Source: Bacteriovorax sp. (lineage in GTDB: Bacteria > Bdellovibrionota > Bacteriovoracia > Bacteriovoracales > Bacteriovoracaceae). From it: 44,995 nucleotides of DNA. Positions 7,257 through 25,858 of this stretch are shown here, one piece after another. The notes beneath the pieces were generated by a model. It worked only from the letters and a program-made list of their open reading frames with translations, was not told where the DNA came from and did no database searches. The stretch lies in contig JACMPM010000022.1 of the NCBI GenBank assembly GCA_014377485.1, positions 1 to 44,995 on the forward strand. The letters run 5' to 3'. The translations under genes were made by a program, and so were the position numbers. Within the stretch, counting starts at the first letter, position 1. Each line of letters begins with the position of its first letter.

Positions 7257-8969
7257 ATGAATATTACATCTACTTTAAAATTTTATTCTGGCATAAACTC
7301 CATCAAACAGAAGAATAAAATGCCTAACAAAGTTGTCATTTTTGGAGCAGGGATAGCTGGATTAAGTACTGCCCATGAATTAGTCCGTTTAGGCTATATT
7401 GTTTCAGTGTATGAAGCGACCGATCGGCCAGGAGGATTCTTTAGAAGTTCAAGGACTAATAAAGAAAATATGCCTACTGAGTATTCGTGGCACGGGTTGG
7501 GGCCTTGGTACCATAATGCTTTTGATCTAATGAAACAAATCCCTTTTAGTGAAAAAGGAAGCATCTATGATTTAGCTCTTTCACGTTCCGTTGATTTTGG
7601 CATTTTTCCAAACGACGACAAGGCTCAATTCTATGATAAAAAACTTTTGAGTGTTCATAAAATGTTTAGGATGAACAAGTTAGAATTAATTAAATGGTCG
7701 TATTTAATGCTTAAAACTTGGACTTCCAACAATAGAAGTAAAATAAAATATGCAAAAATCAATGCGGCACAAGCTTGGAGACCTTTACTTAAAGATAAGG
7801 CCTATAAAACTTGGCGTTCTTGTTTTGGTCCGTGGGTTGGATCAGATTGGTCTAGAGTTTCCTTACATACTGTCGGTGATTTTTTTAGAAAACAACTAAC
7901 AACAAAACCAGCTCATCAACATCTTGCAGATCTTGATGGACCAGCGTGGAAGCAAGGTGCAGGAGATGGCTGGCTGCTATTTAAAGGTCCTAGTAGTGAA
8001 TACTGGTTTAACCCTTGGGTGAAGTATCTTAAAGAAAAAGGCGTTATATTCTTTTGGGAAAAAAATTTAACAAAATTAGAGTATGATGGAACAAAAATTA
8101 TCTCCGCTTTTTGTGGCGATGAGAAAATTCAGGGTGACATTTATATTCTAGCGATCAATCCCTTTATAATGGCCAATATTTTAAGTGAAACCCCGGCACT
8201 TGAAAAACAAGAAGAATTAAAATTATTTAAACCTCTTATTCAAGATGGACCTCATACTCAAGTGTCGTTTAGAGTGGCATTTTCCGAAGAGATAAAATTT
8301 CCTCGAAAGCGAGTTGCAGTTGTATTAAGTGATTCCGAATTTAATTTAACCCTTTTTGCCGAAGAACAAGTTTGGGACGAAAAAGTTGATTTAGGAAGAA
8401 ATATCAAATCAATCTGGACTGGCACATCTTGTATTAGCAGCATTCCAGGCAAGATTTATCATAAGCCCGTAAACAATTGCACGAAAGAAGAATTTATCGA
8501 AGAAGTTAAAACTCAAATTCTTAATTGCGGAGCACTTAATGAATTAATTAAAGAAGCTAATAATGGAAGAGGCTTAAAAGAATTTTCAATTATTAAAATT
8601 GAAGTTTGGCATGAGTGGGTTTTCTCGAGCGAAGGAATTAAATCCTTTCAACCGAAATGGGTTACAACGACTAATACCCAGGCCTATCTCCCCTCCCAGA
8701 AAACGCCGGTTTTAAATCTATTTTTGGCAGGTGCTCACACTAAGACACAAGCTCAAGTATGGAGCATTGAAGGTGCAGTGGAAAGTGGCAGAAGGGCCGC
8801 GAAAGCGATAGATCGACGGGTTAAAGTAATAGATCAATATCGCCCCATGTGGATAAAAAGTTTATCAATAATTGATGACATTTTATATTCGTTTAGAGCA
8901 CCCCAAATTATTGATTCTCTATTTTTATCATTAATTTTATTTTCACTTTGGCGATTTTGGTCAGGATAA
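7257..8969 (+). CDS. FAD-dependent amine-oxidase / phytoene-desaturase-like protein
   Basis: The 570-residue protein has a dinucleotide-binding fold starting near residue 26: VVIFGAGIAGLSTAHEL with the GxGxxG pattern, then a YEA acid and DRPGG. This is the signature of the flavin amine oxidase/desaturase superfamily. The C-terminal FAD-contact region is LNLFLAGAHTKTQAQVWSIE (about 483-502). The last 20 residues form a possible membrane tail. AGGA precedes the first ATG at 7257 at good spacing. A second ATG at 7321, just before the fold, is an alternative start. Substrate cannot be told from sequence; carotenoid-like or sterol-like lipids are typical for the superfamily. Confidence 0.75.
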   Translation: MNITSTLKFYSGINSIKQKNKMPNKVVIFGAGIAGLSTAHELVRLGYIVSVYEATDRPGGFFRSSRTNKENMPTEYSWHGLGPWYHNAFDLMKQIPFSEKGSIYDLALSRSVDFGIFPNDDKAQFYDKKLLSVHKMFRMNKLELIKWSYLMLKTWTSNNRSKIKYAKINAAQAWRPLLKDKAYKTWRSCFGPWVGSDWSRVSLHTVGDFFRKQLTTKPAHQHLADLDGPAWKQGAGDGWLLFKGPSSEYWFNPWVKYLKEKGVIFFWEKNLTKLEYDGTKIISAFCGDEKIQGDIYILAINPFIMANILSETPALEKQEELKLFKPLIQDGPHTQVSFRVAFSEEIKFPRKRVAVVLSDSEFNLTLFAEEQVWDEKVDLGRNIKSIWTGTSCISSIPGKIYHKPVNNCTKEEFIEEVKTQILNCGALNELIKEANNGRGLKEFSIIKIEVWHEWVFSSEGIKSFQPKWVTTTNTQAYLPSQKTPVLNLFLAGAHTKTQAQVWSIEGAVESGRRAAKAIDRRVKVIDQYRPMWIKSLSIIDDILYSFRAPQIIDSLFLSLILFSLWRFWSG

Positions 8970-10787: not shown

Positions 10788-11669
10788 CTAACGAAGCGAA
10801 CGTATCAGCTCATTAATAATTGGATTCGGAAATTTTTTCTGTCGAGTAATCGCATAAAACCTTTGTTTTATGTTTTTGAACTCATGGAGCACGACCAAGC
10901 TACCGTTCTCAATATCATTGGTAACTCCAAGTCGAGGAATGACAACTAGACCTTTTCCAGAAAGAGCTAAAATTCGCAGTAGTGCAATATCGTCAAGCTC
11001 GCCTGTTGTTTTAAGTTTTATTTTGTTTGACTCGATATAATGGTCAAAATCCGAACGACTCTCCAGGCTTGAGGTTGGGAGAAAGATACGGTTATTTTCC
11101 AGAATGAATTCTATCTTTTCGTTTTTTTTAAATTTTATTGATTTGGAGGAAACTATACATAATGGACTATGGGTAAGGAGATGGGTGTAAAGTTCAGATG
11201 ATTCTTCTTCTGTTGCGGAGAATGTAGAAAGCACAATATCTAAAGCATGATCACGTAAGAGTTTTATCAAGCGTTTTGAGTCACCGACAGTTATAGAAAA
11301 CTGAACGTCATCTCTTTCTAAAATTGGTGTTAAAAATTTCGCTTGTAAGTTTCTTGATAGGCTGCCAATCGCGCCAATGCGAATTTGTTGTTTTTTTGTG
11401 CTTGGCCTATGTTTCATGTAATCCATGAGCTCGGTGCCTGTCGTAAATATGGCCTCTGCAAACTCAAGAGCAGTGCCCCCCGCCTCAGTAAGTTCAAAAC
11501 TACGTGTTGTACGAGTGATCAGTTTCTGACCAAAAGCTTCTTCAAGTCTACTCACCTGCTCACTGACTGCCGATTGAGAAAGTCTTAGTTTTTGACCTGC
11601 TTTGGTGAAACCACCTTCTTTGCAAACTGTCCAAAAATAAAAAAGATGATGATAGTTAAGTGTTTCCAT
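10788..11669 (-). CDS. LysR-family transcriptional regulator (NhaR-like)
   Basis: The protein has 293 residues. An N-terminal winged HTH (about 5-62) contains GGFTKAGQKLRLSQSAVSEQ, the LysR recognition-helix pattern. An effector-binding domain follows (about 90-290). The N-terminus LNYHHLFYFW resembles NhaR-type members. It is divergent from dabB, with only 84 bases between the two starts and a 10-bp inverted repeat between them. By the usual LysR rule it should control the DAB operon and itself. The effector is unknown; CO2/bicarbonate status or ion/pH stress are candidates. Confidence 0.9.
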   Translation of the reverse strand: METLNYHHLFYFWTVCKEGGFTKAGQKLRLSQSAVSEQVSRLEEAFGQKLITRTTRSFELTEAGGTALEFAEAIFTTGTELMDYMKHRPSTKKQQIRIGAIGSLSRNLQAKFLTPILERDDVQFSITVGDSKRLIKLLRDHALDIVLSTFSATEEESSELYTHLLTHSPLCIVSSKSIKFKKNEKIEFILENNRIFLPTSSLESRSDFDHYIESNKIKLKTTGELDDIALLRILALSGKGLVVIPRLGVTNDIENGSLVVLHEFKNIKQRFYAITRQKKFPNPIINELIRSLR

Positions 11670-11686
11670 GAATACTTATTTATCGT

Positions 11687-11722
11687 AAAAACAGATTAAT
11701 GGCAAAGAATTTATCTGTTTTT
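11687..11722. promoter_or_regulatory. Inverted-repeat operator between lysR and dabB
   Basis: There is a perfect 10-bp inverted repeat (AAAAACAGAT, 16 bases, ATCTGTTTTT) in the divergent promoter region. It lies 17 bases upstream of the regulator start and 31 bases before the dabB ATG. Position and symmetry fit a LysR-family binding site or a dual operator. No clear -10/-35 pair was assigned. Confidence 0.6.
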
Positions 11723-11753
11723 GTTTTTCACTAAAATAATTCATAATGCATTT

Positions 11754-13274
11754 ATGAAAAAATATTCTAAAAATAATTCAAGTATTTCTTTTGTTCATAA
11801 TGGTTTATGGATCTTTTTTGCCATCGCTTTGGCCTTAGCAGGATGGGGGCTTTTTCGAGGAGATGCAATAATCAATTTATTTTCTATTGAACTAGCAGGA
11901 GTAAGATCTGCCTTTGCATTCAAGATTGATACCATCTCATCATTAATGATTTTAATGATTACGCTACTAGGGGCTATCATTAGTAAATACTCCCTCAGAT
12001 ACCTCAACGGTGAAAAACGACAAGTCTATTTTTACAAATATCTTTTCCTTACCATAACTTCAGTTTCTATTCTGGTTCTATCTAATAACCTCATTATGTT
12101 TTTTGCCATGTGGCTTTTATCCAGCTTCGGTCTTCATAAACTCCTCCTTTATTCTCCAGATAGAAAGCAAGCCGTTGCCGCTGCATGGAAGAAGTTTTTC
12201 GTGAGTCGTTTGGGAGATATTGCTTTGTTATTTGCTATTGTTATTACCTATCAAACATTTGGAACTTTTGATTTTTCCAAATTGTTTATCGCAGCCAATG
12301 GCATTTCATATAATTCACAAGAGGCTTACAATCTTTCAGTAATCGGGATCCTCTTTGTTTTAGGAGCAATGAGTAAATCAGCACAGTTTCCATTTCATTT
12401 CTGGCTTCCAGAAACCATGGAAACCCCAGCTCCTGTTTCGGCACTCATGCACGCAGGGATCATCAATGCTGGAGGATTTCTAATAATCAGACTGAGCCCA
12501 ATGCTAAAGCATGCAGAGACTGCGCATTTAGTTCTGACTTTTTTTGGCTCAATTACAGCAGTTTTCGGTGCACTCGTGATGATCACTCAGAACGATATTA
12601 AAAAAAAATTGGCATACTCTACTATAAGTCAAATGGGAGTTATGATGGTGTCTTGTGGGCTTGGTGCCTATTCATTAGCTTTATTTCACATCATTGCACA
12701 TAGCTTCTATAAATCTCATGCATTTTTAAGCACTGGTTTTCTTGTGGAGGAGTCAAAGAAAGCTAAATTTAATGATTCTAAACAATCAATTGCTTTTCTC
12801 ATTTTTGGGGTATTGGTCGGATATCTATTGATCACGCTAGGTTCGGTTTACTTTGAAAAACAGTATCTAGCTTATTTTGCATATGCTGCAATATTACTGC
12901 TTGGCTTTGTACAAAGCTTTAATTTTGGGCAACAGTCATTTGAGAAAACCGGCATAAAGTTTTTTGTGATTCTTTTTTGTATTTTAATTTTTAGTTTAAG
13001 TATTTTTTTCATTTCTGAATCATTTTTACATGAAAAGCTCGCAGTGCTTACGCCAATGACTTGGGGAGAGAATGGCAGTTTTTCGCTCCAACTGGTTGCT
13101 TGTTATATTTCATATACTATTTTTGTAATCGGTTTAGGGGTAAGTGTGCTTTTAATCGGACCTAAAAATGCTTTCACAAATAAGCTGTATCTCTATTTTT
13201 GGAATGGTGGCTACTTTGCTCAACGAACTAGTTCTTTTTTTAACCAATCGACTGCAAAAGAAGGAGCAAGTTAA
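11754..13274 (+). CDS. dabB: DabB: membrane subunit of the DAB inorganic-carbon uptake complex (NuoL-like)
   Basis: The protein has 506 residues from the ATG at 11754; a TTG start at 11721 in the same frame is less likely, and no good ribosome site is seen. It is a multi-pass protein of the proton-translocating antiporter family. It carries the NuoL motif FWLPETMETPAPVSALMHAG, with the Glu and His used in proton transfer, and the KKKLAYSTISQMG segment. Because a DUF2309 (DabA) gene overlaps its stop by one base, this is DabB rather than a complex I subunit. Known DabAB pairs couple a cation gradient to one-way hydration of CO2 to bicarbonate. It lies downstream of a divergent LysR gene. Confidence 0.9.
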   Translation: MKKYSKNNSSISFVHNGLWIFFAIALALAGWGLFRGDAIINLFSIELAGVRSAFAFKIDTISSLMILMITLLGAIISKYSLRYLNGEKRQVYFYKYLFLTITSVSILVLSNNLIMFFAMWLLSSFGLHKLLLYSPDRKQAVAAAWKKFFVSRLGDIALLFAIVITYQTFGTFDFSKLFIAANGISYNSQEAYNLSVIGILFVLGAMSKSAQFPFHFWLPETMETPAPVSALMHAGIINAGGFLIIRLSPMLKHAETAHLVLTFFGSITAVFGALVMITQNDIKKKLAYSTISQMGVMMVSCGLGAYSLALFHIIAHSFYKSHAFLSTGFLVEESKKAKFNDSKQSIAFLIFGVLVGYLLITLGSVYFEKQYLAYFAYAAILLLGFVQSFNFGQQSFEKTGIKFFVILFCILIFSLSIFFISESFLHEKLAVLTPMTWGENGSFSLQLVACYISYTIFVIGLGVSVLLIGPKNAFTNKLYLYFWNGGYFAQRTSSFFNQSTAKEGAS

Positions 13275-15694
13275 TGCAAACAGAGAGATTTAAAATAATT
13301 GAAAAGAGTCTACATATTTCCGCTCCCTCTTGGCCTCTTCAAAACACTGTCGCAGTTAATCCTTTTTGGTTTTTAAGGCACAAGCCATTTCATCAAGTAA
13401 TGGCGGAATTGGCTTCAACATTAAACACAACCCTTTATATGCCTTTGTCTTATTATAAAGACGCTCTTAATTCTGGGGCGATGAATAGAGAAGCTCTCCA
13501 AGAATCGATTAATATTAACACTAAGATTTTTCCTAAGACATTTCTTTCTATTGAAGATTTTATGAGCGCGGCAGAAACTATAACTAAGCCATATTTTATT
13601 AACAAAACGCTAAGCCAACTTTATTCACAAAAAAAAGATATTCATACTCAAGTAATGATAGATTTTGGGAAGTATGCTTCCGCCTATCTCGATGAAAAGC
13701 AGGCCATTTCTGTTTTTCCATGGAATTCAGTTTCATTTTGGGAGGGGTGGCCTCAAGCGCAAAAGATTGACCGAAGTATGGAGTACTATGGGTTTAAAAA
13801 TTTCAAAAAATCTCTAGATTGCTTAAATGGTATCAGTGCCGAAGATGGAATTTATTTGATGCTCGAGAAACTTGGTATTCTTGGAGAAGAGGCTAAAACG
13901 ACTTACATGCAAAGTTTGCTCGCTAGTGTCTTAGGCTGGTCAAGTCAATTTAAGTATGTTGAGTGGCAAAAGCAGCTCGGGTATGTCGTTTCAAGTAAAG
14001 CTTCTTCGGTTGATCTTCTTGCTGTAAGAATGGCATACGATTACGGAGTATGTACGTGTCTAGACGATAAACAATTTGAACTTAAAGTTTTATGGGCTAA
14101 AAACTTAAATGAATCGCCAACTGTAAAAGACGACTCAAATTATTTACAAATTTTACATTTTGCACTAGAACTCAGTTACCAAAAAAATCTAGTTCAACAA
14201 TTCAATCAAAATCCCTCGCATGCGGAAATTCCACCAAAAGCACAAATTTTATTTTGTATCGATGTACGATCAGAAATGATTAGGAGAAATATTGAAGAAA
14301 CAAACTCTGCTATAAAGACGATTGGATTTGCTGGATTTTTTGGAATTCCATTTGACTATAAGTCAAACTCAGAAAGTATTCCAAGTCACAGGCTTCCCGT
14401 GCTTCTTAATCCTGCATTTATGGTTGAGGAGGCTCCCAAGAATAGTCATGATGTAGGAGACTTTTCTTTAGCTCTTAAGCAGGTGGCGGGTTATTTCCGA
14501 AATTTACGAAAAAATCCTCTCTCTTCATTTCTCTATGTTGAATTGTTTGGGGCACTATACATCGAAAAGTCGATGAGACGTAGTTTTTTAAATGTAGCCA
14601 AAAAAATCAAAGGGAGGCGAATACCTCATCGGTTTTCCCCTCGTGGTTTGGGCCCTAGTCAGTCCAAGGTCACCAATAGCGACGGAACGAGCTTTACAAT
14701 TAACCAAAAAATTGAGCGTGCTGAAGCCGTGCTTAGGCACATGGGCCTATGTGAATCATTTGCAAAGTTGGTACTCATAATTGGTCACGGGAGTGTTACT
14801 ACAAACAATGCTTTTGGCTCTTCATTAGATTGTGGCGCATGCGGAGGCCACGCAGGAGACATTAACGCTCGTTTTTTAGCTGATCTTTTAAATGATTCTG
14901 TCATAAGAAAAGGTTTAGAGACAAAGGGTATTTCGATCCCATCATCTACTCAATTCATTGCAGGGGTGCATGAAACGGTAAGCGATCAGATTTATATAAT
15001 AGAATCAGACAAGGTTTCACCGCAATTACGTGAGGAGTTGAGCTCACTCATGCAAGACTTAAATATAGCATCTGTGAAAACACGCAATGAGCGCTTTTCA
15101 TCCAAACCTTATGGCATTGATCCAAACGCCGAAGTTCGTTCCAAAAATTGGTCAGAGGTACGGCCTGAGTGGGGCCTTGCTGGCAATGCTTGCTTCATCG
15201 TTGCACCTAGATCACGAACTCTAGGTAAAAATTTAAATAGCCGCTCCTTTTTACACGATTACGATTGGAAGTTGGATGAAGAGCAAGGCTATAAAACGCT
15301 TGAACTCATTATGACGGCTCCTATGATTGTAACTAACTGGATTAATCTTCAGTACTTTGCTTCGACAGTGGCACCAGCGGTTTTTGGATCAGGCAATAAA
15401 GTTCTTCATAACCTTGTCAATGAAACGGGAGTTTATGAAGGTAACGGAGGGGACTTAAGAGTGGGGCTTCCATTTCAGTCTGTTCATGACGGTAATAAAT
15501 TTGTGCACGAACCGCTAAGGCTCAGTGTCTTCATCGAAGCACCCCGAGATCAAATTGAATTAATCATTGCTAATCATGAAGTGGTGAGACAGTTAGTAGA
15601 TCATGAATGGCTACATCTCATTCATATCGAGCCGGAGCAGGTAAACCTAACAAGCCAAAGACGTACACACGGCGGTGTGTATGTTCCTATATGA
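13274..15694 (+). CDS. dabA: DabA: DUF2309 zinc-dependent CO2-hydrating subunit
   Basis: The protein has 806 residues, normal for DUF2309/DabA. The beta-carbonic-anhydrase-like zinc site is visible: Cys328 and Asp330 in CIDVRSE, His505 in IIGHGS, and Cys520 in DCGACGGHAG. Spacing closely matches the Cys/Asp/His/Cys set known from the Halothiobacillus protein. With DabB it forms a peripheral/membrane complex that traps inorganic carbon as bicarbonate in the cytoplasm. Its ATG overlaps the dabB stop (TAATG), and its stop overlaps the next ATG, so expression is coupled through the operon. No carbon-fixation gene is present nearby, so an anaplerotic or biosynthetic supply of bicarbonate is more likely than autotrophy. 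Confidence 0.95.
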   Translation: MQTERFKIIEKSLHISAPSWPLQNTVAVNPFWFLRHKPFHQVMAELASTLNTTLYMPLSYYKDALNSGAMNREALQESININTKIFPKTFLSIEDFMSAAETITKPYFINKTLSQLYSQKKDIHTQVMIDFGKYASAYLDEKQAISVFPWNSVSFWEGWPQAQKIDRSMEYYGFKNFKKSLDCLNGISAEDGIYLMLEKLGILGEEAKTTYMQSLLASVLGWSSQFKYVEWQKQLGYVVSSKASSVDLLAVRMAYDYGVCTCLDDKQFELKVLWAKNLNESPTVKDDSNYLQILHFALELSYQKNLVQQFNQNPSHAEIPPKAQILFCIDVRSEMIRRNIEETNSAIKTIGFAGFFGIPFDYKSNSESIPSHRLPVLLNPAFMVEEAPKNSHDVGDFSLALKQVAGYFRNLRKNPLSSFLYVELFGALYIEKSMRRSFLNVAKKIKGRRIPHRFSPRGLGPSQSKVTNSDGTSFTINQKIERAEAVLRHMGLCESFAKLVLIIGHGSVTTNNAFGSSLDCGACGGHAGDINARFLADLLNDSVIRKGLETKGISIPSSTQFIAGVHETVSDQIYIIESDKVSPQLREELSSLMQDLNIASVKTRNERFSSKPYGIDPNAEVRSKNWSEVRPEWGLAGNACFIVAPRSRTLGKNLNSRSFLHDYDWKLDEEQGYKTLELIMTAPMIVTNWINLQYFASTVAPAVFGSGNKVLHNLVNETGVYEGNGGDLRVGLPFQSVHDGNKFVHEPLRLSVFIEAPRDQIELIIANHEVVRQLVDHEWLHLIHIEPEQVNLTSQRRTHGGVYVPI

Positions 15695-16542
15695 TTAAAA
15701 ATATGACTCTTCATTCTTATCATGGAAAGACTATTTATTTGGGAACGAAACACAAAAAAGATCGTGCTCTAAAGGAACAACTTTTAAGCCTTGGCTTAAA
15801 TTGTGAAGTGGTCGAAATTGATACTGATTCATTAGGAACTTTTTCTGGAGAAGTCATGCGTATTGGATCTGTCCAAGAAACATTAAGAATGAAAATAAAA
15901 TTAGTGATGGATAAAATACCTTCGGCTAATTTATTTTTAGCAAGTGAAGGAAGTTTTGGACCTCATCCAATTATCTTTTTTGCAAATTGTAATCAAGAAA
16001 CTCTAATGTTTTATGATAAGGCTTTAGATCTTGAGATTTTATCATCAGATATAACTTTAGAAACTAACCTTAATGAAAAAAACATTAAAAGAAATGAGTG
16101 TTATCTAAAATTTTTAAATGATGTTAAATTTCCTAGTCATGGTCTAATTTTGCAATCTGGCAGTCTGGTAGTAAAGGGCATAGATAATATGGATTATTTG
16201 AAATCTACAATTGAGAATATTTTCAAAGACGCAAATGTAGAGTCTGTTAAAATTTTCACTGACATGCGAGCTAATTTTAATCCCACTCGCATGAAGTTTA
16301 TTGGTTCAGTTGGACAGAATTTAATTAATAAAATTCTTACTTTATGTCCTGGTTGTAACTCACCGGGTTTCGGAATTGTAAAATGCTTACCTGGACTCCC
16401 TTGTCGAGAATGTGGATTTGCAACTAATGGGATTCTCTTTAATGTCTTCCAATGTCCAAAGTGCGGTTTACAAGAAAAACAAAAAAGAACCGATCAAGTT
16501 TTTTACAGTGATCCGGCAGAATGCGATATGTGTAATCCATGA
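15691..16542 (+). CDS. DUF6671-like protein with C-terminal cysteine-rich zinc ribbons
   Basis: The protein has 283 residues from the ATG at 15691, which overlaps the dabA stop (ATGA). The open frame extends further upstream but only inside dabA. The N-terminal half has an alpha/beta look, with a SEGSFGPHP motif near residue 90. The C-terminal 70 residues hold CPGC, CRECG, CPKCG and CDMC pairs, which suggest one or two structural zinc ribbons. This matches the pattern I associate with DUF6671, whose function is unknown. It sits between dabA and sua5 with overlaps at both ends, so it is probably part of the same bicarbonate-linked unit. The family name is moderately sure. Confidence 0.65.
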   Translation: MIKNMTLHSYHGKTIYLGTKHKKDRALKEQLLSLGLNCEVVEIDTDSLGTFSGEVMRIGSVQETLRMKIKLVMDKIPSANLFLASEGSFGPHPIIFFANCNQETLMFYDKALDLEILSSDITLETNLNEKNIKRNECYLKFLNDVKFPSHGLILQSGSLVVKGIDNMDYLKSTIENIFKDANVESVKIFTDMRANFNPTRMKFIGSVGQNLINKILTLCPGCNSPGFGIVKCLPGLPCRECGFATNGILFNVFQCPKCGLQEKQKRTDQVFYSDPAECDMCNP

Positions 16543-17474
16543 GTATAAATATGTTGAAAAAAGCAATAGAATTACTTAAAAATGATGACGTGGTTGGAAT
16601 GCCTACTGAAACAGTTTACGGAATAGCTGGATCTATTTATTCTGAAATTGCGCTGCAGAAAATATTTAAAATAAAGGAGAGACCTTTTTTTGATCCACTC
16701 ATTATCCATGTTTCAAACATTGAAGAGGCAAAAACTCTTGTTAAGAATTGGCCAAAATCAGCGGATATTTTAACCGATAAATTTTGGCCAGGCCCTCTAA
16801 CTCTAGTGCTTGAAAAATCTAACAAGGTTAATGATCTTATTACTTCAGGTCTTCCGACTGTAGCAATAAGAATGCCTAATCACCCAATAGCATTAAATCT
16901 AATAAAAAAATTTGGCAGTCCACTTGCTGCTCCAAGTGCCAATAAATTTAAAAAAACCAGTCCAACGACATTTCAACATGTAAAAGATGAATTTCTTGAT
17001 AATGTTTATGTTTTAGATGGAGGAAGTTGCAGTGTGGGCCTAGAGTCAACTATTTTATTTCTTCATGAAAATGAAAATGTTTTAGAAGTTGAAGTTTTAC
17101 GAAAAGGATTTATACAATATTCAGAAATAGAAAAAATTCTCGTCGAAAATGGTTTTAAATTAAAAAAAGCAAAACTTGGAAATTCAATTCTTGTTCCTGG
17201 GAATATGAAAAATCATTATATGCCTAAGAAGCCTCTTGTTATTTTAAAAGAAGGAAAAGCACTAAAAGATATAAAAATTAATTTTAATACTTATGTTGAA
17301 ATGACTTTATCAAATTCACCAGAGATAGCGGCAAGGCAATTGTACTCTCAATTAAGAATTTCAAGTCAGGGCAAAGAGCACATTATTATTTTTAAAGAAA
17401 TGAATTGGCACGCAGGTGAATTATGGGAAGCTATCCTAGATAGATTGCTAAAAGCTGCATCCGAAGTTTGTTAA
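16539..17474 (+). CDS. tsaC: L-threonylcarbamoyladenylate synthase (Sua5/YrdC/TsaC)
   Basis: The protein has 311 residues: an N-terminal YrdC domain (about 5-190) plus a C-terminal Sua5 domain (about 220-311). Motifs are MPTETVYGIAGSI, KIKERPFFDPL, FWPGPLTLVL and APSANKF, followed by the Sua5-specific linker VPGNMKNHYMPKKPL. The enzyme combines threonine, ATP and bicarbonate to make TC-AMP for the t6A37 modification of tRNA. It overlaps the DUF6671 stop by four bases and is last in the dab operon. Placing a bicarbonate-consuming enzyme behind a bicarbonate pump is suggestive. Confidence 0.93.
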   Translation: MSINMLKKAIELLKNDDVVGMPTETVYGIAGSIYSEIALQKIFKIKERPFFDPLIIHVSNIEEAKTLVKNWPKSADILTDKFWPGPLTLVLEKSNKVNDLITSGLPTVAIRMPNHPIALNLIKKFGSPLAAPSANKFKKTSPTTFQHVKDEFLDNVYVLDGGSCSVGLESTILFLHENENVLEVEVLRKGFIQYSEIEKILVENGFKLKKAKLGNSILVPGNMKNHYMPKKPLVILKEGKALKDIKINFNTYVEMTLSNSPEIAARQLYSQLRISSQGKEHIIIFKEMNWHAGELWEAILDRLLKAASEVC

Positions 17475-17652
17475 AACTAAAATAATTGGTATGACTCTCG
17501 TTTGAACGCTGCTGCCATTGCGAGTCTTTAGCTAGCTAAGATCTCATCACTATTTACAGTAAAGATACGATTAAGGTACCACCGTCTTTTTTTGTCTTCT
17601 AAGGTTTAATAAAAATTCCACAGAAACATGTTCAGATCTAGACGTACAAGCT

Positions 17653-17732: not shown

Positions 17733-17870
17733 ATGGAAATCGAAAGCATTCGGATCAAATTAATAAGTATAGCCTCCCTTTTGAGCAACGAAGGTTCTCA
17801 AGAAGATGCACTGGAAGAATTAGTTAAACTAGTTGAAGAGCTTGAGACTACAAATGACTGCAAGCTTTAG
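17733..17870 (+). CDS. Small acidic helical protein (45 aa), first gene of the PYP operon
   Basis: This 45-residue frame starts with ATG behind GGAG (five bases apart) and overlaps the start of the next gene by 17 bases. Its second half is a leucine/glutamate heptad-like helix (residues 24-40), so it may be a coiled-coil mini-protein. No family is recognised. The Shine-Dalgarno site, position after a promoter and overlap with the next gene support translation. Confidence 0.55.
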   Translation: MEIESIRIKLISIASLLSNEGSQEDALEELVKLVEELETTNDCKL

Positions 17871-18336
17871 TCCTTTGAAGGCAAAAGAAGTTCTCTTAAA
17901 TCTTAATCTTCTTTTAGGTAAAACGAATATTAAAAAAGAACAGCTTCGTCTTCGCCTAATTAAGGTCTGGTACGAGATGTGGTTTGCTAATCCCCAAAAT
18001 GATGAACTATATCAAACCTGGTCATCCGAATGGAGCTCACTTCTGACCTCTGGTCCATACTCATTCCCAGTTCCAGAAACAATCACTAAAATAGCTAAAA
18101 AACCTCTTACTTCCAAACCTATGCTACTTATCGATGGAGAAGCTCATAAATTGCTAGATGTAGTGATTACTCCAATACAAAAAAAATTTTCTCACAATGG
18201 AACCGTCGTACAGAAAGGTCAGATCTATACTTCTTTTCCAAAAACACTAAATAATGAAGAAATTCTTTTGGTCGTCACGGTTAAAGACAGGGCAGATATT
18301 TTAATAACCTCTTCTAAAGTAAAAGTTAAAAGGTAA
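17854..18336 (+). CDS. Uncharacterised protein of the PYP/CheA operon (160 aa)
   Basis: The protein has 160 residues from the ATG at 17854; an in-frame TTG at 17833 would add seven. No signal peptide or membrane segment is seen. The N-terminal half is helical and Trp-rich (WYEMW, WSSEWSS). The C-terminal 70 residues look like a small beta domain. I do not recognise it. It ends four bases before the CheA-like gene, so it is a candidate adaptor for that kinase; this rests only on gene order. Confidence 0.7.
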   Translation: MTASFSPLKAKEVLLNLNLLLGKTNIKKEQLRLRLIKVWYEMWFANPQNDELYQTWSSEWSSLLTSGPYSFPVPETITKIAKKPLTSKPMLLIDGEAHKLLDVVITPIQKKFSHNGTVVQKGQIYTSFPKTLNNEEILLVVTVKDRADILITSSKVKVKR

Positions 18337-18340
18337 CAAA

Positions 18341-20395
18341 ATGAAAGCTGAACTTGCTCAGGCTAGAGAAATAATGGGATCTGATTTTGATGAGCTTTTC
18401 GTCGACGTGATGGCCGATTTAAACAGCTTGGTTGAAAATGTTGAAGTTTGTCTTTCTCAGAGCTCAGAATGGAACGTTAAAAACCTGGAAATAATTCTAG
18501 CTAAACTCCATAGTCTCAAAGGCCTTACGGCCCAGTTCGGACTTGTGACAGTTTCAAAATGTGTCCATAAAGTGGAAGACACTTTTGCTGTCTTTAAGAA
18601 AAAAAATATTTTACCGGATAACGATCTCATCGCTCCTTTAATCAAATTTAATGACGCTTTAAGATTATATATTCAATCTCTCGAATCCGATGATGATTCT
18701 TCCTCGCTTTATCTGGATTTTGTAACGGAACTCGCTTCTCTCAAGTCTGTTCCTTCAACCAACTCTCAAGCTCCAGCGACCGGCAATAACCAAGAAGTCA
18801 CAAATGCTAAGGATTTAAAAAACTATATACTAAATCAGGAGCAATTTGAGCTCATTTTTGAGAATCTCCAGCTTCTTTTAGAGAAGATCAGATCTGAAAA
18901 AGGGAATGAAAATTTAACAAAAAATATTGAGTCATCACTTTTTGCCATTTCTAGCGCCCGCTTTCTTAAAATCACTCCAATAGTGAAAAGAATTGAAGTC
19001 ATGGTGGGAGATATTAGTAAGAAAGTCGGCAAGGATATTCATTTTCAGATCGATGGTGCTCAGACTTTGATTGATCGTATGATTTACACGACTCTTGGTG
19101 AGATCCTGATTCACATTTTAAAAAATAGTATTGATCACGGTATTGAGAGCTCTGAAGACAGAGTGAAATCCGGAAAAACAGAATATGGAAATATCCATGT
19201 AACTTTTGAAAGCCTTGACGACAAAACACGCATAATCATCTCTGACGATGGTAAAGGAATTGATCCAAATATTATCGCTCGTAAAGCATTAGAGAAAAAT
19301 GTCATCACTGAGCAACAGATGCACCAGATGACGAATTATGAAAAACAATTCCTCATTTTTGAAGCGAGCTTTTCGACTAAGGACGAGGTTTCTGAGATCT
19401 CTGGTCGCGGTGTTGGAATGGATGCAGTCATCAAAGAAGTTAAAAAAAACGGGGGAACGATTTTCCTGGATTCGGTACCTAATAAAGGAACAAAATTTAT
19501 TATCGATTATCCTTGTGCTTTCCAGATGAGAAATACTCTTATTTGGCGACAGGGCCTTGATCAGTATTGCATTCCTACTACTTCTGTAGAGCAGATTCTT
19601 TTAGATAAAGATTTGTTTGAAGAGGGTTTAGGTGTCATAAAAATTCTTAAGTCAGGACAAGAGTATCCTCTTCTGGACCTCAAGCTATCAACTCAACTTA
19701 GTAAAAATTTTCAAGTGGTCATTTGCCAGATCGCGGGAATGGAGTTTTCACTAAAAGTTGATGAAGTCATTAAAGTCGATGAGCTCTTCTTGCGTCCGAT
19801 CACTTATCAAAATCAAGAGAAGAACATCATTACAGCTTTAGGAGAACTAGGAGACTCCTCAGCTGTCTATTATATCAATGTAACAGAACTAGAAACCAAT
19901 CTAAATCAATATATGAATTCAGAAGAAACTATAACCTTGGAGGTTAACATGCCCAATATTGTCGATTTGAACTCCCTCTGTACTGGTGATCTCTCTAAAG
20001 AAAAAATCATTGCGCACTTGAATGATGAAGCATTCATCAATCACTTAAAAGGAATAATGGAGCCTGTTAAGGACAATCAAAAAGTCATGAAGGAAATCAT
20101 TGACTATATATCAGCGCATTTAGACTCCATGGAAACAACTTTGGAAGAAGTCGAAGATATCGAAGAGATTAACTACGGTATTACAATTAAATACGCTTAT
20201 TTAAAATCAGAATGGATCATGCTCAACATCAGGATTCAGTATCTCTCTATGGCAGATAAACCCATTGAAGAATCCTTGCCGTACAAAGCGGCAGCATGCT
20301 CAGCGATGGTTGAACATTTCGAGAAAATCATTTCCAAAGACGCTTATTCTAAAATAACTAAAGTCCTTGCTGAACCGTTTTCTAAAATAGCCTAA
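18341..20395 (+). CDS. CheA-like histidine kinase (Hpt, kinase and CheW-like domains)
   Basis: The protein has 684 residues. An Hpt (P1) domain at about 10-135 has the phospho-acceptor His57 in LHSLKGLTAQFG. A CheA-type kinase core (about 160-395) carries the N box HILKNSIDHGIES (Asn262), the G1 box SDDGKGID and the G2 box SGRGVGMDAV. A CheW-like P5 domain follows (about 396-525), then a 160-residue acidic helical tail I do not recognise. There is no receiver domain. CheA proteins are soluble and take signals from partner receptors. The next gene, 17 bases on, encodes a PYP photoreceptor, so light may be the input; that is inference. Confidence 0.92.
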   Translation: MKAELAQAREIMGSDFDELFVDVMADLNSLVENVEVCLSQSSEWNVKNLEIILAKLHSLKGLTAQFGLVTVSKCVHKVEDTFAVFKKKNILPDNDLIAPLIKFNDALRLYIQSLESDDDSSSLYLDFVTELASLKSVPSTNSQAPATGNNQEVTNAKDLKNYILNQEQFELIFENLQLLLEKIRSEKGNENLTKNIESSLFAISSARFLKITPIVKRIEVMVGDISKKVGKDIHFQIDGAQTLIDRMIYTTLGEILIHILKNSIDHGIESSEDRVKSGKTEYGNIHVTFESLDDKTRIIISDDGKGIDPNIIARKALEKNVITEQQMHQMTNYEKQFLIFEASFSTKDEVSEISGRGVGMDAVIKEVKKNGGTIFLDSVPNKGTKFIIDYPCAFQMRNTLIWRQGLDQYCIPTTSVEQILLDKDLFEEGLGVIKILKSGQEYPLLDLKLSTQLSKNFQVVICQIAGMEFSLKVDEVIKVDELFLRPITYQNQEKNIITALGELGDSSAVYYINVTELETNLNQYMNSEETITLEVNMPNIVDLNSLCTGDLSKEKIIAHLNDEAFINHLKGIMEPVKDNQKVMKEIIDYISAHLDSMETTLEEVEDIEEINYGITIKYAYLKSEWIMLNIRIQYLSMADKPIEESLPYKAAACSAMVEHFEKIISKDAYSKITKVLAEPFSKIA

Positions 20396-20412
20396 AACAA
20401 AGGAGCACATTT

Positions 20413-21045
20413 ATGTTTGCAAAAAAATTAAGTGATGAATCAGTGGTTGAATCTTTAGAAGCGAGCGTCGCTAAACCGACACTCGTGCCTACAGAAGCAA
20501 CAGAAAATCACGAAGTAACAGCACAGCTAGAATCTCTCTATGCCGATATTGAATATTTAACAAAAGTTTTTCCGGATCATAACATCCGATCTCTGACTGA
20601 CTACGCCCGCTCACTTGAGACTCAAGGTCACGAGCAGAAGCAAAAGGCCATCGCTAGTGGAGATGTTCAGGACCACGGCTTAATCCCAGGATTTGTTTTC
20701 GCTCAACTGAGTACTCTTAATCAGGAACTGGCGGATTCAACCAGCACGGTCGGAATTGTTGAAGTTGATGATTCAGGAATTATCAAAACCTACAATCAAT
20801 ATGAGGCAGATCTGGCAGGGGTTGAAAAGAAAGGTGTCTTTGGTAGAAATTTCTTTACTGAAGTTGCCCCTTGTACAAATAATCGTCTTTTCCTTGGTGC
20901 CTTTAAAGAAGGGGTGCAAACCAATAGTATCGATAAGAAGTTTAACTACACTTTCACCTATAAAATGAAACCTACACCAGTTGTAATTCAGATTTATAGA
21001 GACACTGCTTCGAAGCGGAATTTTATTTTCGTACAAAAAAGATGA
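20413..21045 (+). CDS. pyp: Photoactive yellow protein (PYP) with N-terminal extension
   Basis: The protein has 210 residues; the last 98 form a PYP-type PAS domain. It aligns without gaps, over residues 127-185, to the well-known Halorhodospira PYP (offset 85). The chromophore cysteine is Cys154 in VAPCT (Cys69 there). Tyr127 equals Tyr42 and Glu131 equals Glu46, the two phenolate hydrogen-bonders. FF147-148, Tyr183 and Met185 are also kept. Thr50 and Arg52 are replaced by Ala135 and Val137. The 110-residue N-terminal part is helical and unlike the usual short cap, so it may dock a partner. PYP binds p-coumarate as a thioester and senses blue light. AAAGGAG lies nine bases before the ATG. 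Confidence 0.96.
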   Translation: MFAKKLSDESVVESLEASVAKPTLVPTEATENHEVTAQLESLYADIEYLTKVFPDHNIRSLTDYARSLETQGHEQKQKAIASGDVQDHGLIPGFVFAQLSTLNQELADSTSTVGIVEVDDSGIIKTYNQYEADLAGVEKKGVFGRNFFTEVAPCTNNRLFLGAFKEGVQTNSIDKKFNYTFTYKMKPTPVVIQIYRDTASKRNFIFVQKR

Positions 21046-21557
21046 TTGTTGAGAAACTTGAGATTCAGGATTCAATTTCCCTCAGATCGCTTGTAAAAGC
21101 GAACTGGGGGAAGTCCTCCAATTTTCTGACCGGTATAAACTATACTGGAAACAGCGGTGATCTCTGGACTTCGTTAGCTTTGAAAAAAGAAGTAACTCAA
21201 AGAGACTTTTGCTTGCCTCGGGTGAAAGTAAGAGTAAATGAAGATCTCTTCAATCTTATTCCTTCTTGGGTGAAAAATTTGTGCCTATACGAAGATATTA
21301 CGTTCGAAGGAGCTATCAACGAGCAACCAGTGAAAGATCTCTTAGACTTCATTTTTATTGGTGATACGATTACGAAACAAGAATTTTATTTCATTTTTTC
21401 GAATGCTTGTCTCAGAAACTCCAGCATCTTTTTTTATGAGAAGAAACATCCTCTCTGTCACTTTTCAGTTAAAAGATTTTTTCTTAAATCTGGGGAACTC
21501 TTAGTCGTGCCTAGAAAAGATTTCAACCTATGGCTTGATAAGCTACATGAGGCTTAA
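21042..21557 (+). CDS. Uncharacterised protein between pyp and the ammonia-lyase (171 aa)
   Basis: The protein has 171 residues, with no signal peptide or clear membrane segment. It is a mixed alpha/beta sequence with scattered cysteines and aromatic residues and no motif I recognise. Its ATG overlaps the pyp stop by four bases and its stop is two bases before the lyase start, so it is translated with the photoreceptor. It could act in chromophore attachment, in signalling or as an accessory fold. Nothing in the sequence decides between these. Confidence 0.75.
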   Translation: MIVEKLEIQDSISLRSLVKANWGKSSNFLTGINYTGNSGDLWTSLALKKEVTQRDFCLPRVKVRVNEDLFNLIPSWVKNLCLYEDITFEGAINEQPVKDLLDFIFIGDTITKQEFYFIFSNACLRNSSIFFYEKKHPLCHFSVKRFFLKSGELLVVPRKDFNLWLDKLHEA

Positions 21558-21559
21558 GT

Positions 21560-23059
21560 ATGAAAGATCTGATTGCCCTCAAAGACATACAATTAAATTA
21601 CGAGCTATTTTCTAAATTTTTAACAGAAGATCTAGAGATCTCTTTGGATGAAATAACAAGAGCTCGTCTGAATCAAAACCACTCTTATCTTTTGAAGCAT
21701 GTTCAATCCGATAGAAAAATATATGGAATAAATACTGGTTTTGGAAAAAACGTTTCAAGTACAGTGAGTGGTGACTTGGCCGGTCTTCAAAAAAATCTTG
21801 CTCTCTATCTGGACTGCGCACAGGGCGAATGGCTTCCTGAAAGAACTTCTCGCCTAATCTTCCTTGTTAGGATTAAGCAAGCATCCTTTTCAGGTAGTGC
21901 AATACGATCTGAAAGTTTAAGCTATCTCATAGACCTCTTTAATGCCGGTATTTCTCCTATAGTTCCTACACTAGGGAGTTTGGGAGCCAGTGGAGATCTT
22001 GTTACGATGGCCCCTATGGCAAGGCTCCTTTTTGATGAAGAAGTTTCATGTTGGCACGGCGGCGCCGTGGTTAGCCTGGCAAATGCTTTGAAGGAAACAA
22101 AAATAAAAATTCCGGGAGCTGACGGACGGGATTGTCTTGCCTTGATGAATGGTCTAGCCGCAGCGGCAACATTAGCAATGACAGAAATCTTGAAGATCAA
22201 TCATCTTCTCAATATCTCCCTGAACTCTATGGGGCTGTGTAAACTGGCACTCGGTGCTAACCAGGAAAGCGAGAGTGAAATTTTAAACTCAGAACCAGTG
22301 AGAAATTTTAGCGGCCAAAAATTGATTGCTGATTCACTCAGAAGACTCTATGTAGGCGCAGGATCAGGTCGAAAAGCTCATCTGCAAGATGCCTATGCCC
22401 TGAGATGCATACCTCAATTCATGGGGCCTGTGATAGAAACATCGCGCTTATCCTCGCAGTGGATTCTCCAGGAGCTTTCAAGCATGAGTGATAATCCTTA
22501 CATCGCTATCGATGATGTTATAAACGGCGGAAACTTTTACGGCGGCTATCTCGCCCAAGCTTCTGATCTAATGGCAACAAACATGGCAAAAGTGGCAGAG
22601 CTTCTGGATCGCCAGACTTTTCATCTCGTAGGTGGACAATACAATTTGCCAGAAAACCTCATACAACAGAACCCGGAGGCTTCATTTCATGGACTCAAAG
22701 GGGTACATCAGTTGAGTAATTCTCTACTCATGAAAATACAGCCACAGGCCACGTCTTACTCGTTGGCCACAAGATCATCTGAAATGCATAACCAGGACGT
22801 GGTAAGTAATTGCATGAACGGTTGGCTAAGGGTCATGCAACTTCGGAGCGACTTTGAGACACTTCTTAGCTGTCATTTAGTCTTGACTGCTCAAGCAAAA
22901 GATCTCGCCCAAGTTTCTGTTTCTGCATTGTCAGAATTGGTGGCATCTGTCAGGGAGAATGTACCCTTCATCAACAAAGATCAGAGCCTGAGGGAGCCTC
23001 TCAAGAAATTGAAAGATAGTCTCTATCAAATTAAATCGGAAGGACCTTTTAGCTTATGA
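21560..23059 (+). CDS. tal: Aromatic amino-acid ammonia-lyase, probably tyrosine ammonia-lyase
   Basis: The protein has 499 residues, normal for bacterial HAL/PAL/TAL enzymes. Ala143-Ser144-Gly145 in LGASGDLVTMAPMARL cyclises to the MIO cofactor. YGINTGFGKNVSST carries the catalytic Tyr, QDAYALRCIPQ and HNQDVVSN are also present. The usual GNFHG loop reads GNFYGG here. The substrate-selectivity pair that is His-Leu in known TALs aligns to Tyr83-Leu84. Tyrosine deamination would give p-coumarate, the PYP chromophore precursor; the neighbouring PYP and ligase genes argue strongly for that over histidine. Its last bases overlap the ligase start. Confidence 0.9.
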   Translation: MKDLIALKDIQLNYELFSKFLTEDLEISLDEITRARLNQNHSYLLKHVQSDRKIYGINTGFGKNVSSTVSGDLAGLQKNLALYLDCAQGEWLPERTSRLIFLVRIKQASFSGSAIRSESLSYLIDLFNAGISPIVPTLGSLGASGDLVTMAPMARLLFDEEVSCWHGGAVVSLANALKETKIKIPGADGRDCLALMNGLAAAATLAMTEILKINHLLNISLNSMGLCKLALGANQESESEILNSEPVRNFSGQKLIADSLRRLYVGAGSGRKAHLQDAYALRCIPQFMGPVIETSRLSSQWILQELSSMSDNPYIAIDDVINGGNFYGGYLAQASDLMATNMAKVAELLDRQTFHLVGGQYNLPENLIQQNPEASFHGLKGVHQLSNSLLMKIQPQATSYSLATRSSEMHNQDVVSNCMNGWLRVMQLRSDFETLLSCHLVLTAQAKDLAQVSVSALSELVASVRENVPFINKDQSLREPLKKLKDSLYQIKSEGPFSL

Positions 23060-24204
23060 AAATCTTAGTTTCTTTTTGTATGAGTAAAAGTTCTCTACTG
23101 GATAATCTAACGCTTGCCTGGAAAGGAAATTTTTCCATTGCTTTATTTAATCCAGCGCTAAAGTCACACGAAAAATTTTATACCACTTGGAATCCTGCAA
23201 ATCATAAAAATGATTTTTGGTTTCTTGATTGGGAAGATTCACCTTTAAGTAAATTGCCGATGCAAGAAGTGGTTGTGCTCTGTACCTCGGGCACAACCGG
23301 TTACATGAGAGAAGTGGTATTAACGAAAGAAGCCTGCCGTTTTAATGTCCAGACAATTAAGCAACATCTCTCGTTAGATGAGAGTTTTAATATCCTCGGA
23401 CTTCCACCTTTATTTCATTCCTTTGGATTAAATATTTGTTTTTTCCAGGCGCTAGAAAATAAAAATAACTATCTTGTGTTTGATAAATTCTCATCCGCTG
23501 CTCTCGAGGTTACCTTGAAAGAACAAAATAGAGTTCTACTTCCTTTGGTGCCTCAAATGATTGATGTCCTAAGTTTTGAACCTCTACGTGACCTTGAAGG
23601 TGTCTCCATTGTCGGCGGAGACATCGTGACTGCCGAACATATTAAAAAGCTCAAGCATCTTTTCCCTAAGATGAAGCATACCATCGGCTACGGTATGACA
23701 GAAGCTGGGCCTGTTATCACTCATACAGATTTTTTAGATCAACCTCAGAGCGGTCTCATCGGTTTGCCACTCCCAGGAGTGAAAACAGCAGTCATAGACG
23801 GAGTACTTCATTTTTCATCACCGGGACAAGCAAAGTATCTACGGGACGCACGAAATGAATGGGAACTGGTTGAAAAGAAATTCCTTTCAACGGGAGATAT
23901 GGTAAAGGAGCGGAATAACCAATTATATTTTCAGTCCAGATTAAAGGATGTGCTGAAACGTAAGTCGGAAACTCTTTTTCCAAGAGAAATAGAGCTTTTG
24001 ATTAAAGAGAATTTAGGTTTTAAAGTTGATCTCCGACTTAGCATGAAGGATTCACAGCTAGTACTGAACGTAGAAGGTCACCTGAGCGTTAGAGAATGGT
24101 TCATTTTACGGAAGAGGTGTTCAGAACTTCCTTCTATTTTCTGCCCGGATTTAATTGAGTCCGTTACCTTTAAGCGCAATGCTCTAGGGAAGATCGCATC
24201 GTAA
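23056..24204 (+). CDS. pcl: Short p-coumarate:CoA ligase-like adenylate-forming enzyme
   Basis: The protein has 382 residues, lacking much of the N-terminal subdomain of 500-residue ANL enzymes. Core motifs are present: CTSGTTGYMREV (P-loop, with its usual Lys replaced), YGMTEAGP, STGDMV, RLKDVLKRKSETLFPREIE, and a final KRNALGKIAS with the A10 lysine. It should activate p-coumarate through an adenylate, as CoA thioester or by direct transfer, for loading onto PYP Cys154. It overlaps the lyase by four bases and is last in the operon. No terminator is evident just after it. Confidence 0.88.
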   Translation: MKILVSFCMSKSSLLDNLTLAWKGNFSIALFNPALKSHEKFYTTWNPANHKNDFWFLDWEDSPLSKLPMQEVVVLCTSGTTGYMREVVLTKEACRFNVQTIKQHLSLDESFNILGLPPLFHSFGLNICFFQALENKNNYLVFDKFSSAALEVTLKEQNRVLLPLVPQMIDVLSFEPLRDLEGVSIVGGDIVTAEHIKKLKHLFPKMKHTIGYGMTEAGPVITHTDFLDQPQSGLIGLPLPGVKTAVIDGVLHFSSPGQAKYLRDARNEWELVEKKFLSTGDMVKERNNQLYFQSRLKDVLKRKSETLFPREIELLIKENLGFKVDLRLSMKDSQLVLNVEGHLSVREWFILRKRCSELPSIFCPDLIESVTFKRNALGKIAS

Positions 24205-24708: not shown

Positions 24709-24850
24709 GTTTGCAGCATTTTATTATCAAACGAAACTTCGTAATGATTCTCTTTAAGCTTTCCTTTCCGAGAATCAGAATTTGAAAGCGTGTTAAGTCT
24801 TCGAAAGTTTAAAACTGGAAAAAATAACTGATATCTGATAATTTAGTCGG

Positions 24851-24881
24851 AATAGGTCGGAATGAAAAATTCCGGCCTATT
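24851..24881 (+). terminator. Hairpin terminator before the left island end
   Basis: A 12-bp stem (AATAGGTCGGAA / TTCCGGCCTATT, one G-T pair) is followed by a T-rich run (TTTTTGCTCTTT). It sits 35 bases before the stranded mutM start codon, so it could end transcription that comes from the PYP operon side. Confidence 0.7.
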
Positions 24882-24892
24882 TTTTGCTCTTT

Positions 24893-24937
24893 AATTTTAA
24901 CAAGATATAAACCCATGCCCGAACTACCCGAGAAGTA
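24893..24937 (+). repeat. Left end of the element: stranded mutM 5' end (attL-like)
   Basis: It contains ATG (24915-24917) and codons for PELPE, the universal MutM N-terminus, then AAG and a stop. The 11-base core GAACTACCCGA (24921-24931) is identical to the core at 31527-31537. Upstream bases (AATTTTAACAAG) also match the right copy imperfectly. Confidence 0.75.
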
Positions 24938-25050
24938 GTTACGAGCTAAGAGAAGTTTTTTAATATTAATTACATAGCAACGATTACGAGCCTTTCACGT
25001 CTATTCTGTTTTCATTCTACTTCATTCTATTTCACGATTCTTCACCATTC

Positions 25051-25073
25051 AGGATGGCATGGGTGGCATGAGA
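25051..25073 (+). repeat. Left copy of a short repeat near the element ends
   Basis: AGGATGGCAT, GGGTGGCATGAGA; it matches 31449-31472 with about two differences. Each copy holds a near-tandem GGATGGCAT motif. It may be a recombinase arm site or the true crossover site. Confidence 0.5.
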
Positions 25074-25108
25074 TGGCTCAAATTTTACACTATAAAAAAC
25101 GGAGACCA

Positions 25109-25858
25109 ATGATTAAAAAAGTCGCTCTATATTGCCGCGTCTCGACCGGAAATCAGTCCTCAGGATTAGAAGCACAGGTTCGAGCACTAAGAGATTACTG
25201 TACTAGAAATAATATTACCGATTATGTTATTTATGAAGATGAGAATCAATCAGGGGTAAAGCAATCCCGCCCGGCCCTCGATCGCATGATGAAAGATGTC
25301 CGCGATGGCTTTGTCGGCAAAGTTATCGTTTACAGCTTTAGCCGATATGCAAGAAGTGTTACTCACCTACTCCGCGCTTTAGAAGAATTCAAAAAATCAG
25401 AAGTTGGATTCGTTACAATCACAGAAAGCATCGATACAAATACTCCTCTAGGTTCAGCCGTGTTCACGATCTTAGGAGCCGTCGCCCAACTTGAGCGAGA
25501 TTTAATTGCCGAAAGAGTGCGCAATGGGCTCGCAAATGCGAAAGCCAAGGGAATTCATATTGGGCGAATTAAAATGCGAGATAGCGACCTTATAAGAAAA
25601 TTACTATCTAGTAAAATGACTTATCGAGAGATTGCTAGGATTGCAAATTGTTCTACTGGTGCGGTTAGTGCCGAAGTAAGAGCTATAAAAGCAGAGGCAC
25701 TGGCTAAAGAAAAAAATAAAATACTACAAGAAACACTCATGCCAAAGTTAGACCTTGAGCATCCGTCCAGTAAAAATGTTGCAGTTGCAGGAAATCATTA
25801 TCAAGGACAAGATTTCGATTTTAACAATCAAGATAATCCTATTGAGCTTGAGAGCTAA
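25109..25858 (+). CDS. Serine recombinase (resolvase/invertase family)
   Basis: The protein has 249 residues from the ATG at 25109, which has GGAG just upstream; the longer frame to 25073 lacks a site. The catalytic N-terminal domain has the nucleophile Ser12 in YCRVSTGNQ, the YSFSRYARS arginines and LGAVAQLERDLIAERV. A GIHIGR linker leads to a C-terminal helix-turn-helix (SKMTYREIARIANCSTGAVS). A 50-residue polar tail follows. Such small resolvases cut and rejoin short DNA sites. As first gene at the left end it may serve element resolution or inversion. A 10-bp hairpin follows the stop. Confidence 0.92.
   Translation: MIKKVALYCRVSTGNQSSGLEAQVRALRDYCTRNNITDYVIYEDENQSGVKQSRPALDRMMKDVRDGFVGKVIVYSFSRYARSVTHLLRALEEFKKSEVGFVTITESIDTNTPLGSAVFTILGAVAQLERDLIAERVRNGLANAKAKGIHIGRIKMRDSDLIRKLLSSKMTYREIARIANCSTGAVSAEVRAIKAEALAKEKNKILQETLMPKLDLEHPSSKNVAVAGNHYQGQDFDFNNQDNPIELES

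Follow-up and report, generated by a model that had tools for sequence, protein, structure and literature searches.

Photoactive yellow protein (PYP) is among the best-studied photoreceptors, and it raises the question of which partner receives its light signal. Downstream signalling is named as a gap in the text of a survey of PYP operons (PMC12826048). A 44,995-nucleotide stretch of DNA from Bacteriovorax sp. (assembly GCA_014377485.1, contig JACMPM010000022.1, positions 1 to 44,995), referred to here as the window, carries the sensor, its pigment genes and a candidate direct kinase partner in one operon. This operon probably encodes a receptor-free, chemosensory-type phosphorelay with PYP as the light input, which would be read through a C-terminal kinase domain, here called X, and an N-terminal extension of the PYP. 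At the level of sequence, this reading is built on the intact PYP pocket and kinase motifs, a conserved core of five genes, the association of X with PYP, and CheY and CheX genes linked to the operon in three relatives. The contact between PYP and kinase, the sign of the light control, the lyase substrate and the output are its inferred parts.

The operon lies on the forward strand (17733-24204) and consists of seven tightly packed genes in the order orf1-orf2-cheA-pyp-orf5-lyase-ligase, with intergenic gaps of -17, +4, +17, -4, +2 and -4 bp. All seven reading frames are open and the catalytic residues are intact. An initial annotation, made from the sequence alone, had proposed a complete PYP operon of seven consecutive genes with four-base overlaps or short gaps, including a CheA-type kinase and the genes for making the chromophore. 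This is confirmed, also by the hidden Markov model (HMM) searches that it had suggested, in which the kinase, PYP, lyase and ligase were matched strongly. The description of PYP and the kinase as "fused" was wrong, and such a fusion is ruled out, as the two are encoded by separate open reading frames (ORFs). The most informative parts of the system were all missed at that stage, namely X, the conserved extension of the PYP and a sister type of operon with a decayed kinase. From the orf1 ATG to just past the orf5 stop, the window is homologous to a locus from a member of another family (L042), with 73% DNA identity over the 3853 bp from orf1 start to orf5 stop. Because of this identity and the occurrence of the five-gene core in five genomes, the operon is not a chance arrangement.

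Among 369 Bdellovibrionota genomes, PYP was found in 14, five of which have a long, extended form. The kinase family is present (E < 1e-100) only in these same five genomes, and the order orf1-orf2-cheA-pyp-orf5 is kept in all five loci, referred to as type A. The PYP domains of these loci form one clade with a support of 100/100. The core is followed by the lyase and ligase genes in the window, L043 and L044. In L042 and L045, a single-domain CheY and CheX take their place, together with an HD-domain (HD-GYP-like) protein in L042, and in L043 a CheY and a CheX protein are encoded farther downstream. CheY and the CheX phosphatase are thus found downstream in three of the five loci. Since the biosynthesis and output genes vary among loci, the five signalling genes are the stable core. 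The predatory type of bacterium suggested in the annotation also agrees with the phylum, as the relative L041 is named Oligoflexia, a group assigned to Bdellovibrionota by NCBI.

The kinase resembles canonical CheA (Thermotoga maritima, PDB 1b3q and 3ja6) in the order of P1, P3, P4 and P5 and in its motifs. It differs in the lack of a visible P2 domain, in a divergent P5, in the additional C-terminal X and in the absence of a linked MCP or CheW gene. Its best PDB sequence and fold matches are CheA P3-P4-P5 structures, which cover P4 and P5, and its Hpt match is above the Pfam cut-off. The CheW domain is borderline against PF01584, with 2.2e-4 and 21.3 bits in the protein scan and 24.3 bits in the genome search (cut-off 23.5). 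All five family members keep the H57-x-x-K-G motif and the N, G1 and G2 motifs for ATP binding without change, and therefore the protein should be an active histidine kinase. An ordinary chemotaxis operon is ruled out, as no MCP, CheW, CheR or CheB gene is present in any of the five type-A loci.

The X domain has no convincing match in Pfam, and its PDB matches resemble the chance matches of coiled coils. It occurs in 12 of the 369 genomes, and 11 of these also have PYP; in the twelfth (G125), the contig with the X gene stops at the operon, where PYP would be expected. The co-occurrence is strong by Fisher's test (p 1.2e-17, with a second value of 1.8e-11), both values ignoring shared ancestry. 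Ordinary CheAs of the phylum do not carry X. This restriction to PYP-linked operons holds within Bdellovibrionota; the search of other phyla covered close relatives of the kinase only.

X is also part of a second architecture. An operon with a short PYP is found in six other PYP genomes and, judging from where its contig stops, in G125; it encodes a small coiled-coil protein, a lyase, a ligase and a protein of about 480 amino acids. The coiled-coil protein is seen wherever the PYP itself is assembled; in G071, PYP and the gene for the 480-residue protein are split between two contigs, both of which end close to the operon. Profile comparisons show that this protein begins with the X domain (E 2.5e-12), followed by a decayed P4 that has lost the GRGVGMD box and a P5/CheW domain (E 1.4e-10), and no Hpt was found by the same comparisons. 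These features support its interpretation as a permuted, Hpt-less and decayed CheA. That X is associated almost exclusively with PYP, across several families and in both architectures, is the best evidence for X as the presumed site of PYP action. A protein of about 400 amino acids with an apparent signal peptide and a transmembrane segment precedes short-PYP operons (L046:6698-7894; L048:8243-9550, - strand; L050:6562-7824, - strand), and the one such protein scanned gave no Pfam match.

The best PDB matches of the window PYP are all PYPs, and its score against TIGR02373 (99.8 bits) is under the equivalog cut-off of that model (143). The chromophore cysteine and the two phenolate hydrogen-bonding residues named in the annotation are indeed conserved: Cys154, Tyr127 and Glu131 align with C69, Y42 and E46 of the Halorhodospira halophila protein. 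Position 50 (H. halophila numbering) is alanine, and PYPs with Ala50 absorb at 435-465 nm according to a survey of known PYPs. The extension contains a block (QL..LY...EY.T..FP....RSLTD) that is invariant across the five long PYPs, and the extension is absent from the short ones. Distant PYPs with the Cys, Tyr and Glu residues were also seen in G021, G146 and G145, which belong to a single genus; in G021, CheA-like matches are unusually numerous.

Characterised tyrosine ammonia-lyases (TALs) have His-Leu as their selectivity residues. The window lyase does not have this pair but carries Tyr-Leu instead (Tyr83-Leu84, window 21806-21811), aligned with the Ser-His of the histidine ammonia-lyase (HAL) 7tqr. 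The same Tyr-Leu pair is found in all eight PYP-linked lyases compared (window, L043, L044 and L046-L050), and it is possibly a signature of PYP-associated lyases. The Ala-Ser-Gly triad of the MIO group is present, as had been noted earlier. In the translated ligase, the motifs TSGTTG, YGMTEAG, TGD and a C-terminal GKI are found; no NCBIfam equivalog was reached, and p-coumarate is inferred as its substrate from operon context. The "self-sufficient" receptor of the annotation is likely. Less secure is the lyase substrate, as Tyr-Leu occupies the Ser-His site of HAL and tyrosine is presumed from operon context.

Table 1. Positions of the features of the PYP operon and of related proteins (window coordinates unless a locus is given)
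Feature	Position	Strand	Evidence
orf1, 45-aa helical small protein, first core gene	17733..17870	+	77.5% identity over 40 aa in L042
orf2, 160 aa, candidate adaptor	17854..18336	+	conserved ahead of kinase gene in 5/5 type-A loci
CheA-type histidine kinase, 684 aa, P1/Hpt-P3-P4-P5-X	18341..20395	+	Pfam, NCBIfam; PDB sequence and fold matches to CheA P3-P5
Hpt (P1) domain, residues 20-115, phospho-acceptor His57	18398..18685	+	PF01627 7.8e-6; H57-x-x-K60-G61 invariant
P4 ATPase domain, residues 251-391	19091..19513	+	PF02518 3.3e-15; N262, DDGxGI, GRGVGMD conserved
P5 CheW-like domain, divergent, residues 406-517	19556..19891	+	PF01584, borderline
X domain, helical, residues about 553-680 of kinase	19997..20380	+	predicted helices; homologous to N-terminus of decayed CheA, E 2.5e-12
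PYP, 210 aa, chromophore Cys154	20413..21045	+	TIGR02373 1.1e-28; PDB PYPs; Y127, E131, C154
PYP N-terminal extension, residues 1-93	20413..20691	+	conserved block (see text)
orf5, 171 aa	21042..21557	+	overlaps pyp by 4 bp; conserved after pyp in 5/5 type-A loci
Aromatic amino acid ammonia-lyase, 499 aa, presumed TAL	21560..23059	+	PF00221 3.9e-96; MIO triad A143-S144-G145
Compact adenylate-forming ligase, 382 aa, presumed p-coumarate:CoA ligase	23056..24204	+	PF00501 2.8e-22, residues 67-249
About 480-aa protein (X, decayed P4, CheW)	L046:8724-10169; L047:5241-6695; L048:3215-4660 (-); L049:2940-4397; L050:8009-9469		profile comparisons
Distant PYPs	L052 about 7880-8194; L053 about 7725-8045 (-); L054 about 1415-1714 (-)		

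In the proposed mechanism, p-coumarate would be made by the lyase, activated by the ligase and attached to Cys154 of PYP. Blue light of about 440-460 nm would drive the photocycle, and the changed PYP would use its N-terminal extension to act on the kinase complex, most likely at the X domain beside P5, with the products of orf2 and orf5 perhaps serving as adaptors. PYP would thereby alter how the P4 ATPase phosphorylates His57 of P1. From there, the phosphate would pass to a CheY of the single-domain type, and CheX, where present, would switch the signal off. The CheY partner of the window kinase would be encoded elsewhere in the genome. The search for a cognate CheY and CheW that had been suggested earlier gave about 53 receiver-domain matches in the genome of the window, one CheX and MCPs, with CheW in a separate, canonical CheA-CheW-CheR-CheB cluster (named from the sequences and CheW matches). 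The chemotaxis-type phosphorelay of the annotation is upheld by the linked CheY and CheX genes of the three relatives; that the window operon "feeds" it is a weaker part of the claim, as no CheY gene is adjacent here.

Several observations weigh against this mechanism. No response regulator gene is linked to the kinase gene in the window, and neither CheY nor CheX is encoded near the operon, not even in decayed form, as a tblastn search of the window with the L042 proteins found nothing. The three genomes with distant PYPs have no X domain. The similarity of the PYP extension to the coiled-coil partner of the short PYPs is weak (hhalign probability 61%), and the idea that the two are the same module is suggestive only. 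In addition, the structure models are of modest quality for the kinase (pLDDT 65) and poor for orf5 (pLDDT 46). Lastly, P5 is divergent but recognisable, and therefore contact with a standard chemotaxis array is possible.

This last point leads to an unlikely alternative, in which PYP tunes an ordinary array, the kinase joining MCP and CheW via P5 and the output being phototaxis by a standard CheY. The MCPs and the canonical cluster of this genome would provide such an array, and the text of PMC2993699 reports that the kinase domain of Ppr binds CheW in R. centenaria. However, P5 is divergent, the array genes are missing from all type-A loci, three of these loci have their own CheY and CheX, and the ordinary CheAs of the phylum are without X.

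It is very unlikely that the operon is a recently acquired and possibly non-functional passenger without an output partner in this genome, although its genomic setting gives some indications in this direction. The type-A operon is absent from the genus mates searched, its closest match is in another family, and no CheY is encoded nearby. In G012, a genome of the same genus, a block consisting of LysR-dabB-dabA-DUF6671-sua5 (L092 12224-18923) is 86% identical to window 10789-17482. There, the block is followed by the inverted counterpart of window 24800-25034, with no type-A operon at this place. From this arrangement, the operon was probably gained in the window genome, or lost in G012, between these points, beside a serine recombinase gene that lies just downstream. 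On the other hand, the seven open frames and intact catalytic residues argue against a passenger. Also, the GC content of the core is 39% in the window, closer to that of the host, against 48% in L042 (53% over the fetched locus), which suggests that the operon has not just arrived.

In the weakest alternative, which is highly improbable, PYP and the kinase would share no more than a transcript, the kinase sensing another signal via orf2, orf5 or X and PYP having another target; these three parts are without known function and the PYP-kinase interaction is a predicted one, but X occurs almost exclusively with PYP, in both architectures and across several families, and this and the adjacency conserved in five type-A loci speak against it.

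The chances are about even that these operons represent a distinct photo-chemosensory class, with a soluble PYP standing in for the chemoreceptor array and governing a kinase of the CheA type via the dedicated X domain. In its sister class, X would head the permuted, catalytically decayed and Hpt-less CheA, and PYP would be partnered by a separate coiled-coil protein.

Parts of this system have been described before. The texts of PMC12826048 and PMC9664959 already cover PYP-TAL-pCL operons (pCL being p-coumarate:CoA ligase), kinase genes located upstream of pyp, fusions of MCP with PYP, and the occurrence of PYP in Bdellovibrionota. The H. halophila pyp-pCL-TAL operon (PMC12826048, as described in its text) likewise combines PYP with the ligase and lyase genes for its chromophore, but it has three genes in that order, no kinase and a single-domain PYP of about 125 amino acids. 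The placement of the kinase directly upstream of pyp is shared with operons counted in PMC12826048 (8 HisKA, 9 HATPase_c). For these, the text names no Hpt/CheW-type (CheA) kinase, X domain, orf2 or orf5, or linked CheY and CheX; part of the HATPase_c cases could be the present operon type. Ppr of Rhodocista/Rhodospirillum centenum also ties PYP light input to chemotaxis proteins (CheW and CheAY), yet, according to the text of PMC2993699, it is a PYP-phytochrome-histidine kinase fusion that binds CheW, whereas the window has a separate PYP and its own CheA-type kinase. A chemotaxis-type input is likewise proposed in the texts of PMC9664959 and PMC12826048 for the Leptospira PYP beside a chemoreceptor without a sensory domain and for the MCP-PYP fusions. 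That input is at the receptor level, while the window has no receptor gene and its kinase bears the PYP-linked domain. The earlier statement that no PYP-CheA operon of this form had been described holds for the main texts of PMC12826048 and PMC9664959; the main texts of these two and of PMC2993699 do not describe a CheA-type kinase in a pyp operon, the X domain or the decayed-CheA type.

The association of X with PYP points to a new route for light into a phosphorelay, and this PYP-specific domain is amenable to testing in vitro. If the reading is true, the path from PYP to a kinase would be defined, and optogenetics would gain a soluble CheA that can be switched by light. It would also be an example, from a phylum known for predators, of a chemosensory kinase that operates in the absence of chemoreceptors.

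Small ORFs resembling orf1 are found directly upstream of orf2 in L043, L044 and L045, and orf2 probably starts at the ATG at 17854, overlapping orf1. No Pfam or PDB match was obtained for orf2; for orf5, no convincing Pfam match was found and its PDB matches were at chance level. The latter gene is retained after pyp even in the type-A loci without the lyase. Both proteins are unrelated to the membrane protein, the coiled-coil protein and the decayed CheA of the short-PYP operons. The plasmid relatives have an ordinary CheA and an ordinary PYP only.

In L044 and L045, a gene for a MerR/B12-binding regulator lies divergently upstream of the type-A operon (L044:5353-6219 and L045:5457-6368, both on the - strand). 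In the B12 motif of this regulator, the Trp-His...Glu-His and the His resemble the CarH photoreceptor, and therefore expression of the operon may also be induced by light.

In the window as well as in G012, a PYP operon lies beside the LysR-dabB-dabA-DUF6671-sua5 block. The operon types and the sides differ, the operon of G012 being of the short-PYP type and located on the opposite flank. G012 also has a second copy of most of this block (L093). The segment at window 24800-25034 (about 240 bp) contains a 15-bp terminator-like hairpin, is found inverted beside sua5 in G012, and is followed in the window by the serine recombinase gene (25073-25858). The genome of the window is assembled in 147 contigs (3.95 Mb). 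Farther away, the - strand at window 39526-41214 encodes a protein whose cytochrome c domain is RoxA-like.

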